Below the pieces are notes generated by a model. It saw nothing but the letters and a program-made list of their open reading frames with translations. It was not told the DNA's origin and made no database searches. Source: Aquisediminimonas profunda (GTDB lineage Bacteria; Pseudomonadota; Alphaproteobacteria; Sphingomonadales; Sphingomonadaceae). Taken from it: a stretch of 64,000 nt of DNA. Where the stretch lies: the NCBI RefSeq assembly GCF_019443285.1, contig NZ_CP080327.1, positions 1,732,001 through 1,796,000 on the forward strand, in the 5' to 3' direction. This document shows, piece by piece, positions 1 to 9,982 of the stretch. The translations under genes were made by a program, and so were the position numbers. Numbering within the stretch: the first letter of the stretch is position 1; each line of letters opens with the position of its first letter.

Positions 1-261
1 TGCGGGTGGAAGCGCATTTTCCGGCACATCGTCAATCATGTGATGCAGCCAGCCGTGCCATTCGGGCGGCACGCGACTTGCGTCATTCAAGCCATTATAC
101 ATCACCCAGCGACGCGTGAGACCGCCGACGGTCTTGCCACCTTCGTAATAGACATTGCCTTCGGCATCATGGCCGATCCGCTTGCCCTTGGTCGCGGTGC
201 CAAGCCACGTGCCGAACGTCGCGCCTTCCCACCAGGTGAAGATATTCTTGAATATGCCCAT
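1..261 (-). CDS. NDUFA12-family complex I accessory subunit, C-terminus cut off by window edge
   Basis: The minus strand reads open from an ATG at 261 to the window edge, giving 87 codons without a stop. The protein starts MGIFKNIFTWWEGATFGTWL and later has the GKRIGHDAEGNVYYE and RRWVMYNG blocks, then a PPEWHGWLHH block. This pattern is that of the NDUFA12 (B17.2, 17 kDa) family, a small accessory subunit of NADH:ubiquinone oxidoreductase that alphaproteobacteria share with mitochondria. The family is usually about 120-140 residues, so roughly the last third is missing here. It is not linked to other complex I genes in the window. The family call is firm; the function is from the family. Confidence 0.88.
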   Translation of the reverse strand, partial: MGIFKNIFTWWEGATFGTWLGTATKGKRIGHDAEGNVYYEGGKTVGGLTRRWVMYNGLNDASRVPPEWHGWLHHMIDDVPENALPPA

Positions 262-568
262 GGATGGGCGATTACCCGTGCTCGCGGATTCGTGCAACGG
301 TGTTGGTGCCTGCCTGCTTCCGGCAGAATTTCACCAACTGAGGCAACTGCCGTACAAAATGGCAGCTTGAAAAACGAGTTCCCGGCTAACGGCGCCGCAA
401 TCTTGTCGAGTGCTGGGCGAAATGACCATTTTTGGGACATTGTTAAGCATTTATTAGCTTTTGCGCCGGGCGAAAAGGAACTATCGGTCGGGCAAATAAT
501 TTGAGTCGCACAAAACCGTGGACCGTTTGGCGCCAAGTGCTGAACATTTTAATTTTGGAGCTTGTATC
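262..568. other. Divergent intergenic region with a 37-base hairpin
   Basis: This 307-base stretch separates the divergent starts of the NDUFA12-like gene and the PEP-CTERM gene and must hold both promoters. I see no convincing gene in it. At 302-338 there is an inverted repeat: GTTGGTG (302-308) pairs with CACCAAC (332-338), and an inner CTGCC (310-314) pairs with GGCAG (322-326) around a 7-base loop. It has no following T run, so it is not an obvious terminator. It would lie in the 5' leader of the minus-strand gene if that transcript starts beyond 338. No certain -35/-10 pair could be assigned. Confidence 0.45.
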
Positions 569-6788: not shown

Positions 6789-7661
6789 ATGATGGAAGGC
6801 AAACCCCTGAGCTTTCAGGACCTGATCCTGACTCTCCATGACTATTGGGGCAAGCAGGGCTGCGTCATCCTCCAGCCATATGACATGCGCGTGGGCGCGG
6901 GGACATTTCATCCGGCGACAACGTTGCGTGCCCTCGGGCCAGATCACTGGAATGCAGCCTATGTCCAGCCGTCGCGCCGACCGACCGACGGTCGCTATGG
7001 CGAAAACCCCAATCGGCTCCAGCATTATTACCAGTATCAGGTCATCATGAAGCCGAGCCCGGCCAATCTGCAGGAACTCTACCTCGGTTCGCTGGACGCA
7101 ATCGGCATCGATCCGCTGAAGCACGACATCCGCTTTGTCGAGGATGATTGGGAAAGCCCTACGCTCGGTGCCTGGGGGCTGGGCTGGGAAGTCTGGTGCG
7201 ACGGGATGGAAGTGACGCAGTTCACCTATTTCCAGCAGATGGGCGGGTTCGATTGCAAGCCGGTTGCAGGCGAGCTGACCTATGGGCTCGAACGGCTCGC
7301 CATGTACATCCAGGGCAAGGACAGTGTGTACGATCTTGCCTTCAATGACGCGGGCGTCACCTATGGCGATGTGTTCCACAAGAACGAGGTGGAATTCAGC
7401 ACCTATAATTTCGAAGTCGCGGATACCGCGAGCCTGTTTGACGGGTTCGCCAAGGCGGAAGCCGAATGCAAGCGCTGCATCGACGCGAATATTCCGCTTG
7501 CGGCTTATGACCAGGCAATCGAGGCAAGCCATTTATTCAACCTGTTGCAGGCGCGCGGCGTAATCTCCGTGCAGGAACGCGCCAGCTACATGGGCCGGGT
7601 CCGCGATCTGGCGAAGGGCAGTTGTCTGGCGTGGATGGACAAGAACGGGTGGACGGCGTGA
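6789..7661 (+). CDS. glyQ: Glycyl-tRNA synthetase alpha subunit
   Basis: The alpha chain of the bacterial alpha2-beta2 glycyl-tRNA synthetase (EC 6.1.1.14) carries the class II catalytic core that makes glycyl-adenylate. The 290 residues open with [20 protein letters not shown] and [38 protein letters not shown] and [14 protein letters not shown] are the class II motif 2 and 3 regions. An AAAGG sits upstream of the first ATG. It overlaps glyS by four bases (GTGA), so the two subunits are translationally coupled. Confidence 0.97.
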
Positions 7662-9982
7662 CCGATTTCCTGCTCGAACTCCGTTCGGAGGAAATCCCGG
7701 CACGGATGCAGGACAAGGCGCGTGCCGATCTGGCCCGGCTTTTTGCCGAGGAGATCGGCAAGGCCGGTCTGCAGGCGACCGAAATCGTCACCTATGCCAC
7801 GCCGCGCCGCCTGGCTCTGATCGCCCGAGGGCTGCCGCTTGAGACAAGCGCTGTCAGCGAGGAACTGAAGGGACCGAAAACGTCTGCGCCGCCGCAAGCA
7901 CTTGAAGGATTCCTCCGCAAGACCGGATTGACGCAGGACCAACTGGAGGATCGCGACGGCACCTGGTTTGCCGTGATCGCAAAGCCCGGACGCCAGACAG
8001 CGGATGTGCTGGCCGAGGCGATCCCGACCATCGTTCGCGCCTTTCCCTGGCCCAAGTCGATGCGCTGGGGCGCGGCCTCTGCCTCGACTGAAAGCCTCCG
8101 CTGGGTGCGGCCCCTCCAGGGCATTGTGGCTCTGCTCGGCGACACTGTGGTGCCGTTCGAGATTGACGGCGTGGCGAGCGGATCGGCAACCGTCGGCCAT
8201 CGCTTCCATCATTCGGGGGACGTCACGATCGGCAACGCAGCCGATTATGCGGCAAAGCTCAATGCCTGCCATGTGATCGTCGATCAGGAAGAACGCCGCG
8301 CAATCATCCGCTCGGGCGCCGAGAAGGCCGCAGCGGCTGCGGGCCTCACACTGGTTCCGGATGAAGGTCTGGTGATCGAGAATGCGGGCCTGACCGAATG
8401 GCCAGTTCCCATGCTCGGCCGCTTCGATCCCGCGTTTCTCGCGGTGCCGGAAGAAGTTATCCAGCTGACGGCGCGCGTGAACCAGAAATATTTCATCTGC
8501 CGCGATGATGCGCGCAAGCTCGCCAACGCCTTTGTCTGCACCGCCAACATTAATGCGAATGACGGCGGAGCAGCGATTGTCGCGGGCAATGAGAAGGTTC
8601 TGGCTGCACGGCTTTCCGATGCGAAATTCTTCTGGGAACAGGATCTGAAGGTTCCGCTGGAGACGCAGGCCGAAAAGCTCAAGGACATTGTCTTCCACGA
8701 GAAGCTGGGGACGGTGGCCGACAAGGTCGAGCGCGTGGCGAAACTCGCGCGCTGGCTGGTTGAAGAAGGGATCGTCAAGGGGGCCAGCGCCAACGATGCC
8801 GAACGCGCGGCGCTGCTGTGCAAGGCCGATCTCGTCACCGGGATGGTCGGCGAATTTCCGGAACTGCAAGGAATCATGGGCGGCTATTACGCCCGCGCAC
8901 AGGGCGAGACAGATGCGGTCGCCGATGCGGTGCGCGATCACTACAAGCCAGTCGGGCAGGGCGATGACGTGCCAACCGCGCCGGTGACGGTGGCGGTGAG
9001 TTTGGCGGACAAGCTGGATACCCTGGTTGGGTTTTTTGCAGAAGACATGCTGCCAACTGGATCCAAGGATCCGTTTGCGCTCCGTCGTGCGATGCTCGCG
9101 CTCGTTCAGCTTGTCTTGTCGAACAACCTTCGCTTCGATGCCAAAGGCGCTTGGTTTGAAGGCCGAAGCGAATACATTGAGCAGATAAGAACGAAAGCCA
9201 CTGCTGATTTGTGGCCGAAGATATTTGCCGATCACGAGCGAGCGATAGATTTAGCGGCGGAATTGGCCGCAGTGGAAAAGGCACCAGTTCTTCATATCTC
9301 TGCGATCTGGAAAGAAATGGAGCAGCAGCCGTCGCTTCAGATTACCCAAGACCAAGCACGCGATATTGCGTCAGCCTATGTCGCTCGCGAAACTCAGCTT
9401 CTTTATGGGGCTAGCGTCCCAGTTTATGAGGAATTGTCCAAGTTCCTCGCCGACCGTCTCAAAGTCCAGCAGCGCGAGGCGGGTGTGCGGCATGACCTGA
9501 TCGATGCAGTTTTCGCGCTGGGCGGGGAAGACGATCTCGTCCGCCTTCTTGCCCGCGTGAAAGCATTGCAGGCGTTTGTCACCACTGAAGAAGGTACGAA
9601 CCTCCTCGCCGGTTACAAGCGGGCGGCGAATATCTTGAAGCAGGCGGAGGGCGTCGCCCCTGCGGAGGCAGGGGCCTCTGCGGGAGTCGGGAGCCAAGGC
9701 GTCCAACAGGTCCCTGCCTTTGCAGGGGCAACGGAGTTTGACGTAGCCCTCCTCAATGCACTCGAAGCTTCTGAGCCCAAGGCAACAGCTGCAATCGAGG
9801 CAGAAGATTTCGAAGGGGCAATGGCGGCACTCGCCACGCTCCGCGCGCCGATCGACGCGTTCTTCGATGGTGTGATGGTGAATGATCCAGACCCGCAAAA
9901 GCGGGCGTTCAGGTTGGGATTGCTGGCAAGGTTCCGTGATGCGGTGCATCGCGTGGCGGATTTTTCCAAGATCGAGGGGTAA
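7658..9982 (+). CDS. glyS: Glycyl-tRNA synthetase beta subunit with two insertions
   Basis: The beta chain binds and positions tRNA-Gly. Start is GTG at 7658 within the GTGA overlap with glyQ; the protein begins [18 protein letters not shown]. Normal blocks include [16 protein letters not shown], the [10 protein letters not shown] and [10 protein letters not shown] motifs, [13 protein letters not shown] and, near the end, [17 protein letters not shown]. At 774 residues it is about 85 longer than E. coli GlyS (689). The excess lies mainly at residues 494-592 (9137-9433), between the LVLSNNLRF helix and the anticodon-binding domain. That stretch uses codons rare in the neighbours (three ATA, AGA, TTA, CGA). 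A second, repeat-derived insertion lies at about residues 666-691. Confidence 0.95.
9656..9730 (+). repeat. Palindromic repeat pair embedded in frame in glyS
   Basis: Two hairpin units lie inside the coding sequence. GCCCCTGC (9656-9663) pairs with GCAGGGGC (9668-9675), and CCCTGC (9712-9717) pairs with GCAGGG (9722-9727) around CTTT. The same core occurs between genes at 37049-37068, 38468-38495 and 40472-40497. Here it is read as protein (APAEAGAS ... VPAFAGATE), just before [14 protein letters not shown], where family members have a short loop. Confidence 0.8.

Follow-up and report, generated by a model that had tools for sequence, protein, structure and literature searches.

The HsdS proteins of type I restriction enzymes have hypervariable, exchangeable specificity regions that are kept diverse by conflict, and the Rickettsia palindromic elements are in-frame palindromic inserts in housekeeping genes. 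Conserved genes in which a segment of 70 residues or more is variable have been described as segmentally variable genes, and the passages of that study used here discuss aminoacyl-tRNA synthetases, with prolyl-tRNA synthetase as an example (Zheng, Roberts and Kasif 2004; PMC387263). For the (alpha-beta)2 glycyl-tRNA synthetase (GlyRS) of E. coli (7EIV, 7YSE; PMC8464048, PMC9908026), residues Gly473, Asp474, Asp476, Arg481, Arg482 and Arg531 are described as touching the tRNA acceptor stem or U73, Arg531 through the acceptor-stem backbone (passages of PMC9908026). The present analysis concerns the GlyRS beta subunit gene glyS within a 64,000-nucleotide stretch of the Aquisediminimonas profunda contig NZ_CP080327.1, termed the window in the following. 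Its product carries a 99-residue segment in the HD domain, which may represent one allele of an exchangeable module. The features are, in window coordinates:

7658..9982, plus strand: glyS, glycyl-tRNA synthetase beta subunit, 774 residues, starting at a GTG that overlaps the stop codon of glyQ; named by Pfam/NCBIfam match
9137..9433, plus strand: hypervariable cassette, residues 494-592, from the break in the E. coli alignment and comparison with relatives
9053..9088, plus strand: 12-residue motif, residues 466-477, which aligns with Loop H18-19 and the start of H19 of the E. coli enzyme
9452..9466, plus strand: downstream anchor DRLKV, residues 599-603, with Arg600 aligned with E. coli Arg531

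The window protein is a GlyRS beta subunit, matching PF02092 with E=1.8e-184 and 615.1 bits (cut-off 29.2, Pfam) and TIGR00211 with 715.8 bits (cut-off 300, NCBIfam). Its phmmer alignment to E. coli GlyRS stops at residue 497 and picks up again at 586, and in the numbering of that alignment the distance from the RR to the DRL motif is 121 residues as opposed to 47-48 in E. coli. A first-pass annotation, made from the sequence alone, had proposed some 99 extra residues at positions 494-592, which is where the alignment gap lies. It had also named two observations that would speak against an unusual insert, and neither was made: the segment did not align to E. coli GlyS, and GlyS matches to it at E<=0.01 were restricted to the window genome and two others among 397 genomes of the family. 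The accompanying statement that relatives have about a dozen residues at this site was wrong, as E. coli has 47-48 and other alphaproteobacteria have 27 to 146 residues between RR and DRL. Likewise, the block accounts for only part of the excess length attributed to it, since residues 664-694 form a second, repeat-derived insert (see below).

The analysis covered the segment between the anchors DPFALRR and DRLKV in 161 genome loci (154 parsed, seven without both anchors) and in 80 loci of a genome contig collection. One set of 100 genomes was drawn from the best-scoring places among the matches listed and leans towards GlyS close to that of the window; another set of 80 genomes (34 of the same class and 46 of other classes) was picked for spread from 144 with a match. 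L031, L034 and L035 (duplicates or not glyS) and the mis-parsed L172 (segment 290) were excluded; L191 and L203 gave no parsed segment in the 80-locus set, L203 being compared singly. The class comparison missed L224 and L289, and the length of 26 for L279 is probably a pattern error. Among 225 distinct alphaproteobacterial GlyS, the segment ranged from 27 to 146 residues with a median of 65, reaching at least 90 in 82 proteins and no more than 31 in 31. The 11 parsed GlyS of the window's own genus, the window included, had segments of 29 (three), 42 (two), 48 (two), 96, 98, 112 and 121 residues, and these cassettes appear unrelated except within the 29- and 48-residue groups. The variation extends beyond the family, as 57 alphaproteobacterial GlyS outside the Sphingomonadaceae ranged from 31 to 135 residues (coefficient of variation 0.39). 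In contrast, 45 GlyS from other classes of the same phylum had 26-67 residues with a median of 50 and varied little in length (coefficient of variation 0.11). Extreme diversity of sequence and length is thus restricted, in the sampled GlyS, to Alphaproteobacteria.

Other distances between conserved anchors in alphaproteobacterial GlyS were mostly fixed (each read in 82 to 243 of 275 GlyS), the exceptions being the site around residue 376, which bears repeats, and a few loosely anchored stretches. The two control genes varied little. ppdK had 858-911 residues between its anchors (39 of 80 loci), and glyQ, the neighbour of glyS in the window, had 254-268 (both anchors present in 28 of 80 loci):

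6789..7661, plus strand: glyQ, an open reading frame for what we take, from recognising its sequence, to be the glycyl-tRNA synthetase alpha subunit, 290 residues; control neighbour

With an insert of 99 residues, a segment of up to 146 residues and near-fixed neighbours, glyS qualifies as a segmentally variable gene in the above sense. It shares with the genes of that study, as far as its passages describe them, a conserved enzyme with a variable segment that might fold alone, and differs from them in the number of segment types, in their recurrence across genera independently of the distal gene, and in an upstream border (PMC387263). A term search found no occurrence of 'glycyl' in the main text of that paper and none of 'alphaproteobacteria' in PMC9908026; alphaproteobacterial variation is also absent from the passages of PMC9908026 and PMC8464048 used here, which otherwise deal with the same protein, HD domain, Loop H18-19, H19 and Arg531. 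A literature search, outside of which most subscription journals lay, returned no paper title on such GlyS variability or on a phage mimic of the GlyRS HD domain. Several individual loci were unusual in other respects. In L009, L011 and L013 a 28-residue stretch past the downstream anchor, near-constant in most of the relatives compared, is divergent, as if the exchanged stretch sometimes extended downstream. On contig C64 (L330), next to ppdK, genome G180 carries part of another glyS, whose short cassette differs from that of the glyS on C102; this may reflect two alleles or contamination. On G226:C1 and G336:C1 the open GlyS frames span 1141 and 1140 codons, far beyond the usual 690-800.

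When grouped by blastp (E<=1e-3), 128 long cassettes fell into 103 types, 85 of them singletons and 18 recurring, with a Chao1 estimate of about 378; shuffled sequences as a control gave 0 matches. Deduplication removed G211 (L032/L036) from this count, which would belong to the type of the window. Long cassettes were homologous in none of 54 same-genus pairs and in 21 of 2502 cross-genus pairs, short cassettes (core of 12-34 residues) in 10 of 38 and 42 of 1043 pairs, respectively, so that long types show no tie to the genus and short ones show some. One further long type is common to two named Microvirga outside the genus-coded set. At an HD-flank identity of at least 0.85, cassettes were homologous in 13 of 391 pairs (8/370, 3/17 and 2/4). 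Where long cassettes were homologous, core length was identical in 19 of 31 pairs as compared to 1.8% of other pairs. The window type was found at the same GlyS site in two other genera among the 397 family genomes, namely in G211 (67% identity) and G097 (32%), and also in a named Sphingomonadales metagenome-assembled genome (L203, 42% over 81 residues); G212 is linked to it only weakly, through G097 (E=7e-4). By eye, the segment at the cassette site looks repeat-like in L020, L128 and L147.

In the Sphingomonadaceae, the 30 pairs sharing a long type had a distal GlyS identity of 0.700, as opposed to 0.705 in 4723 other pairs (p=0.52). The 49 residues directly upstream were, however, more similar in sharing pairs (0.830 versus 0.744), with an identity excess, given distal identity, of 0.085 (label permutation p=0.0002). 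No clear difference was seen in the downstream flank (0.856 versus 0.847, then 0.783 versus 0.804). Missing N-termini removed four of 102 cassettes and two of 32 homologous pairs from this comparison. The window itself follows this pattern: its residues 441-493 are 86% identical to G211 and 62-73% to ten same-genus GlyS, whereas over residues 201-300 its identity is 63% to G211 but 82-90% to its own genus. The same long types are thus found in different genera irrespective of the distal gene, as is expected for exchangeable alleles shared across taxa. The upstream excess could alternatively result from co-adaptation of touching residues instead of co-transfer.

The first-pass annotation had further pointed to rare codons in the block. 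Its count of three ATA, one AGA and one TTA was reproduced, none of which occurs in the rest of glyS; the 'several' CGA are present but amount to two, with one elsewhere in the gene (AGG, none and two; CTA, none in either part). Together, these rare codons make up 7 of 99 in the block and 3 of 675 in the rest of glyS (Fisher p=4e-5). The GC content at third codon positions (GC3) drops from 0.711 in the remainder of the gene to 0.474 in the block, and 2000 synonymous resamplings of the latter gave no score as low. Against the other open reading frames of the window, which may include some non-genes, the block is less extreme, 4.0% of 396 windows of 99 codons scoring as low or lower. Odd codons had been taken as a sign of a foreign or very old lineage-specific domain; they cannot serve as proof of a recent foreign origin, as cassette GC3 was below that of the flanks in 134 of 137 deduplicated alphaproteobacterial cassettes (136 of 139 before deduplication). 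Outside the Sphingomonadaceae, the 57 alphaproteobacterial GlyS had a GC3 of 0.595 versus 0.791 in the flanks (lower in 51 of 53), while the 45 non-alphaproteobacterial GlyS had 0.654 versus 0.658 (lower in 22 of 44). Low GC3 was also found in most homologous cassette copies compared, synonymous differences being saturated for several of these, and cassette GC3 correlated with host GC3 (rho 0.51, n=140), suggesting some adjustment of the cassettes to the host.

Averaged over many genomes and corrected for amino acids, the GC3 dip sets in some 25 codons upstream of where the LRR motif ends, spans the invariant 12-residue motif upstream of the cassette and stops about five codons short of DRLKV; in 87 GlyS with short cassettes it is weaker, and in non-alphaproteobacterial GlyS it is absent. 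At conserved fourfold columns of Sphingomonadaceae glyS, synonymous diversity was 0.688 near the cassette (seven columns), 0.421 upstream (33 columns) and 0.537 downstream (15 columns), a peak beside the variable segment as expected of balanced or exchangeable alleles; non-alphaproteobacterial GlyS showed no such peak at the site. The anomaly in codons and synonymous diversity therefore has a sharp upstream border within invariant protein sequence. As it is one-sided and covers sequence that does not vary, simple relaxation of a fast-evolving loop cannot account for it, and an exchanged unit with a 5' border can. No conserved DNA target was visible at this border, the synonymous codons of the invariant motif being diverse. 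The borders of the GC3 dip, the synonymous peak and the upstream-flank identity together suggest the following unit, which rests on averages across genomes and not on the window alone:

9014..9436, plus strand: putative exchange unit, residues ~453-593

Within cassette types, amino-acid changes are fewer than synonymous ones. The proportion of nonsynonymous differences (pN) was lower than that of synonymous differences (pS) in 20 of 21 homologous pairs, the exception being the nearly identical pair L048/L049 (0.01 versus 0.00), and the window and G211 cassettes gave a pN of 0.20 and a pS of 0.82. An AlphaFold2 model of full-length GlyS, based on an alignment of 53 sequences (52 of 64 candidate GlyS and the window, with only L203 known to be homologous in the insert), reached a mean predicted local distance difference test (pLDDT) score of 89.6 and placed four helices within residues 495-584:

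9140..9229, plus strand: predicted helix, residues 495-524 (AlphaFold2, full GlyS; 10-residue block pLDDT ~81-93)
9233..9271, plus strand: predicted helix, residues 526-538 (AlphaFold2 model, full GlyS)
9290..9325, plus strand: predicted helix, residues 545-556 (AlphaFold2 model, full GlyS)
9347..9409, plus strand: predicted helix, residues 564-584 (AlphaFold2 model, full GlyS)

A structure search with the whole model listed GlyRS, HD-domain proteins, ArgRS and AlaRS and was uninformative on the insert. By alignment, the cassette lies between the putative counterparts of two E. coli acceptor-stem contacts. The first-pass annotation was accordingly right in that the block adjoins a tRNA-binding element; this element is, however, the HD domain that binds the acceptor stem, with the block inside it, and not the anticodon-binding region alone.

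Searches for a source of the cassettes outside glyS identified none. For the window cassette there was no homolog in phages, plasmids, IMG/VR or the genome contig collection, the searches of the latter two being sensitive to close relatives only, and outside glyS the 397 family genomes contained a single weak match (G220, E=0.005) in an open reading frame without GlyS features. Smaller searches with two other cassettes, L010 and L134, gave glyS matches only (298 genomes each), without a plasmid match for L010 or a phage match for L134. The window insert had no Pfam or PHROG match at E<=0.01 and two weak, unrelated Pfam families at E<=1. Of 92 cassettes, taken as segments of 80-150 residues, 90 were scanned and matched three Pfam families and one PHROG, each in a single member and with E values of 0.001-0.0075, which is near chance; among these is a marginal TGS-domain match (E=0.001). 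As no splicing or homing domain occurred among the Pfam matches, there is no indication of an intein, for which 99 residues would also be too short. The insert matches its own genome once and thereby differs from a repeat-derived palindromic element, and unrelated sequences of differing length fit the target of a diversity-generating retroelement poorly. Recent foreign capture was rejected, as cassette homologs occupy the same glyS site in other genera and these searches gave no close homolog in a mobile element or a distant taxon. The proposal of a foreign or lineage-specific domain thus holds insofar as an essential synthetase carries a variable extra domain with odd codons, but the site varies widely across alphaproteobacterial GlyS. 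That reading is only partly right, and the site is apparently a swappable, class-wide slot, larger than the capture of a domain by a single lineage.

The second insert in the window GlyS is unrelated to the cassette:

9647..9739, plus strand: dispersed repeat read in frame, residues 664-694, with 51 matching pieces in its own genome, itself included

Relatives carry other repeat-like sequences at the counterpart of residues 664-694 and near residue 376. It is this insert that resembles the Rickettsia palindromic elements, unlike the one at 494-592.

A search of the family genomes with the GlyS HD domain as query returned a second short HD match in G165, a 193-residue open reading frame (L331) identical to one in the viral contig IMGVR_UViG_2706794917_000005 and matching PF02092 at residues 117-157 (3.6e-11, Pfam). 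In an alignment search of IMG/VR, five of 47 stretches were confirmed: this contig, three stand-alone reading frames of about 169-179 residues and one truncated glyS (L337). A second alignment search of IMG/VR returned the same four reading frames, which share the motif GLKPNGSKDP[FY]ALRRAA:

L332:4001-4582, L334:2869-3405, L335:2869-3387 and L336:2860-3366, viral contigs: stand-alone GlyRS HD-domain mimics, ~169-193 residues

Those of L334 and L335 are 96% identical and stem from one metagenome, and the frame of L336 is longer if an upstream GTG is taken. The neighbours of the L332 mimic match phage DNA primase, DNA methyltransferases, excisionase and integrase, and the L336 contig also has an integrase; the host lineage is known for the first form only. 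In the three mimic forms, similarity stops a median of 2, 10 and 6 residues past LRR when compared with alphaproteobacterial GlyS and 2, 10 and 2 residues past it with non-alphaproteobacterial GlyS. As both stop alike, the mimic itself ends at the cassette boundary, and phages have taken the element bordering the cassette. Two other candidates were not counted. A 151-codon frame of G611 proved to be a glyS HD fragment between secretion-type genes (L354:7060-7455, G611:C57; the neighbours are HlyD- and TolC-like), and L337:10-450, at the margin of IMGVR_UViG_3300022549_000032 and close to a collagen-like tail-type gene, is a truncated glyS that has a cassette of its own and may be chimeric or real. 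Records H1-H8 of the phage collection, filed under Salmonella, Listeria, Acinetobacter and Escherichia phages, match ordinary bacterial glyS, some being annotated as such, and are probably host DNA.

Taken together, we propose that the HD domain of alphaproteobacterial GlyRS beta subunits contains an exchangeable, hypervariable module whose diversity is kept by an antagonist, an explanation which as a whole we consider evenly balanced between right and wrong. Its components differ in strength. The description of the site as an exchange module is very probably correct. The exchanged unit would begin at the loop that inserts into the acceptor stem, take in helix H19 and end together with the variable segment, and homologous recombination between the conserved flanks would swap the cassette types. 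Conflict as the driver of cassette diversity is possible, although we lean against it: an antagonist, a phage protein or toxin, might grip this face of GlyRS, so that a new or rare surface would escape. The phage mimic is our strongest hint of such an antagonist and could, for instance, act by competition for tRNA-Gly or for contacts that the enzyme itself makes, but that it is the counterpart of the cassette is rather doubtful. Equally speculative is the wider idea that an acceptor clamp with a swapped repertoire constitutes a diversity-based immunity, which temperate phages answer with a stand-alone clamp mimic competing for tRNA-Gly or GlyRS. Compared with HsdS, glyS has similarly conserved flanks, many unrelated variable modules and a patchy distribution, but it encodes an essential synthetase. 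Several observations weigh against the proposal. Positive selection within types is not supported and the cassettes are less constrained than their flanks (21 pairs); flank synonymous divergence may be lowered by codon selection, which leaves a greater age of the cassettes unproved. Model confidence in the insert is mixed within full-length GlyS (block means ~70-93) and poor when it is modelled alone (pLDDT 49.1). For long types, 0 of 54 pairs does not demonstrate a lower rate within genera than across them, short cassettes partly follow kinship, and the 31 of 225 GlyS with only 27-31 residues at the site indicate that the long form is dispensable. Sequence pairs are not independent and label permutation ignores kinship, so the p values are guides, and the genome collections, with one genome per species, give no strain-level view of swapping within species. 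Finally, two of the three mimic forms are barely closer to alphaproteobacterial GlyS than to others (best 54.3 versus 51.2 and 67.8 versus 66.2 bits), and the mimic is rare, with the HD query finding it in a single genome of the 397 in the family.

Among the alternatives, the site might simply be a permissive loop, an exposed hairpin tolerating in-frame insertions which then drift without exchange or special function. Repeat-like inserts at two other GlyS sites, of which that at window residues 664-694 is established as a dispersed repeat, the repeat-like segments at the cassette site itself, the minimal forms of 27-31 residues, the predominance of singleton types and the partial kinship of short forms would all agree with this. 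We nevertheless regard it as unlikely, as long types recur in other genera with equal core length in most homologous pairs, pN stays below pS, the window insert is predicted to be folded in its full-length context, and the anomaly extends some 25 codons into invariant sequence on one side only; moreover, the 45 non-alphaproteobacterial GlyS have a hairpin at the same site and show no such features. Similarly improbable in our view is a lineage-specific module by which each cassette docks its own protein or tunes RNA contacts, so that diversity would follow partners and not an enemy. The position between two acceptor-stem contacts and the marginal TGS-domain match in one of 90 cassettes are in line with such a role, and passages of an earlier study ascribe variable synthetase segments to tRNA recognition (PMC387263), but cassettes differ within one genus.

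Two further explanations are far less likely. A recently captured foreign domain peculiar to this lineage would account for the low GC3 and rare codons of the window block, yet low GC3 is a class-wide property of the site, the same type sits at the same position in G211, G097 and L203, and no homolog was found in phages, plasmids, IMG/VR or genome contigs, in the latter two by searches sensitive to close relatives only; this we consider highly improbable. Just as remote is a selfish in-frame element spreading between glyS genes by gene conversion. It would fit with the occurrence of the three searched cassettes in glyS only, two of them across genera, and with the existence of an apparent short form, but the presence of some hundred unrelated types at a single site, the lack of a visible conserved DNA target and of splicing or homing domains in the Pfam matches of the scanned cassettes argue against it.

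The length of GlyS, its codon bias and the sequence of its insert are, in consequence, unsafe as signs of foreign capture or as clade markers. Aminoacyl-tRNA synthetases are usually seen as slow-evolving, with extra domains as markers of lineages, whereas here unrelated modules replace one another in an essential enzyme, and the marks of exchange sit at the element reading the acceptor stem of the tRNA. If an enemy drives this diversity, the target and a phage candidate would be named; if not, alphaproteobacterial GlyS would provide a natural experiment on domain replacement of unusual scale.

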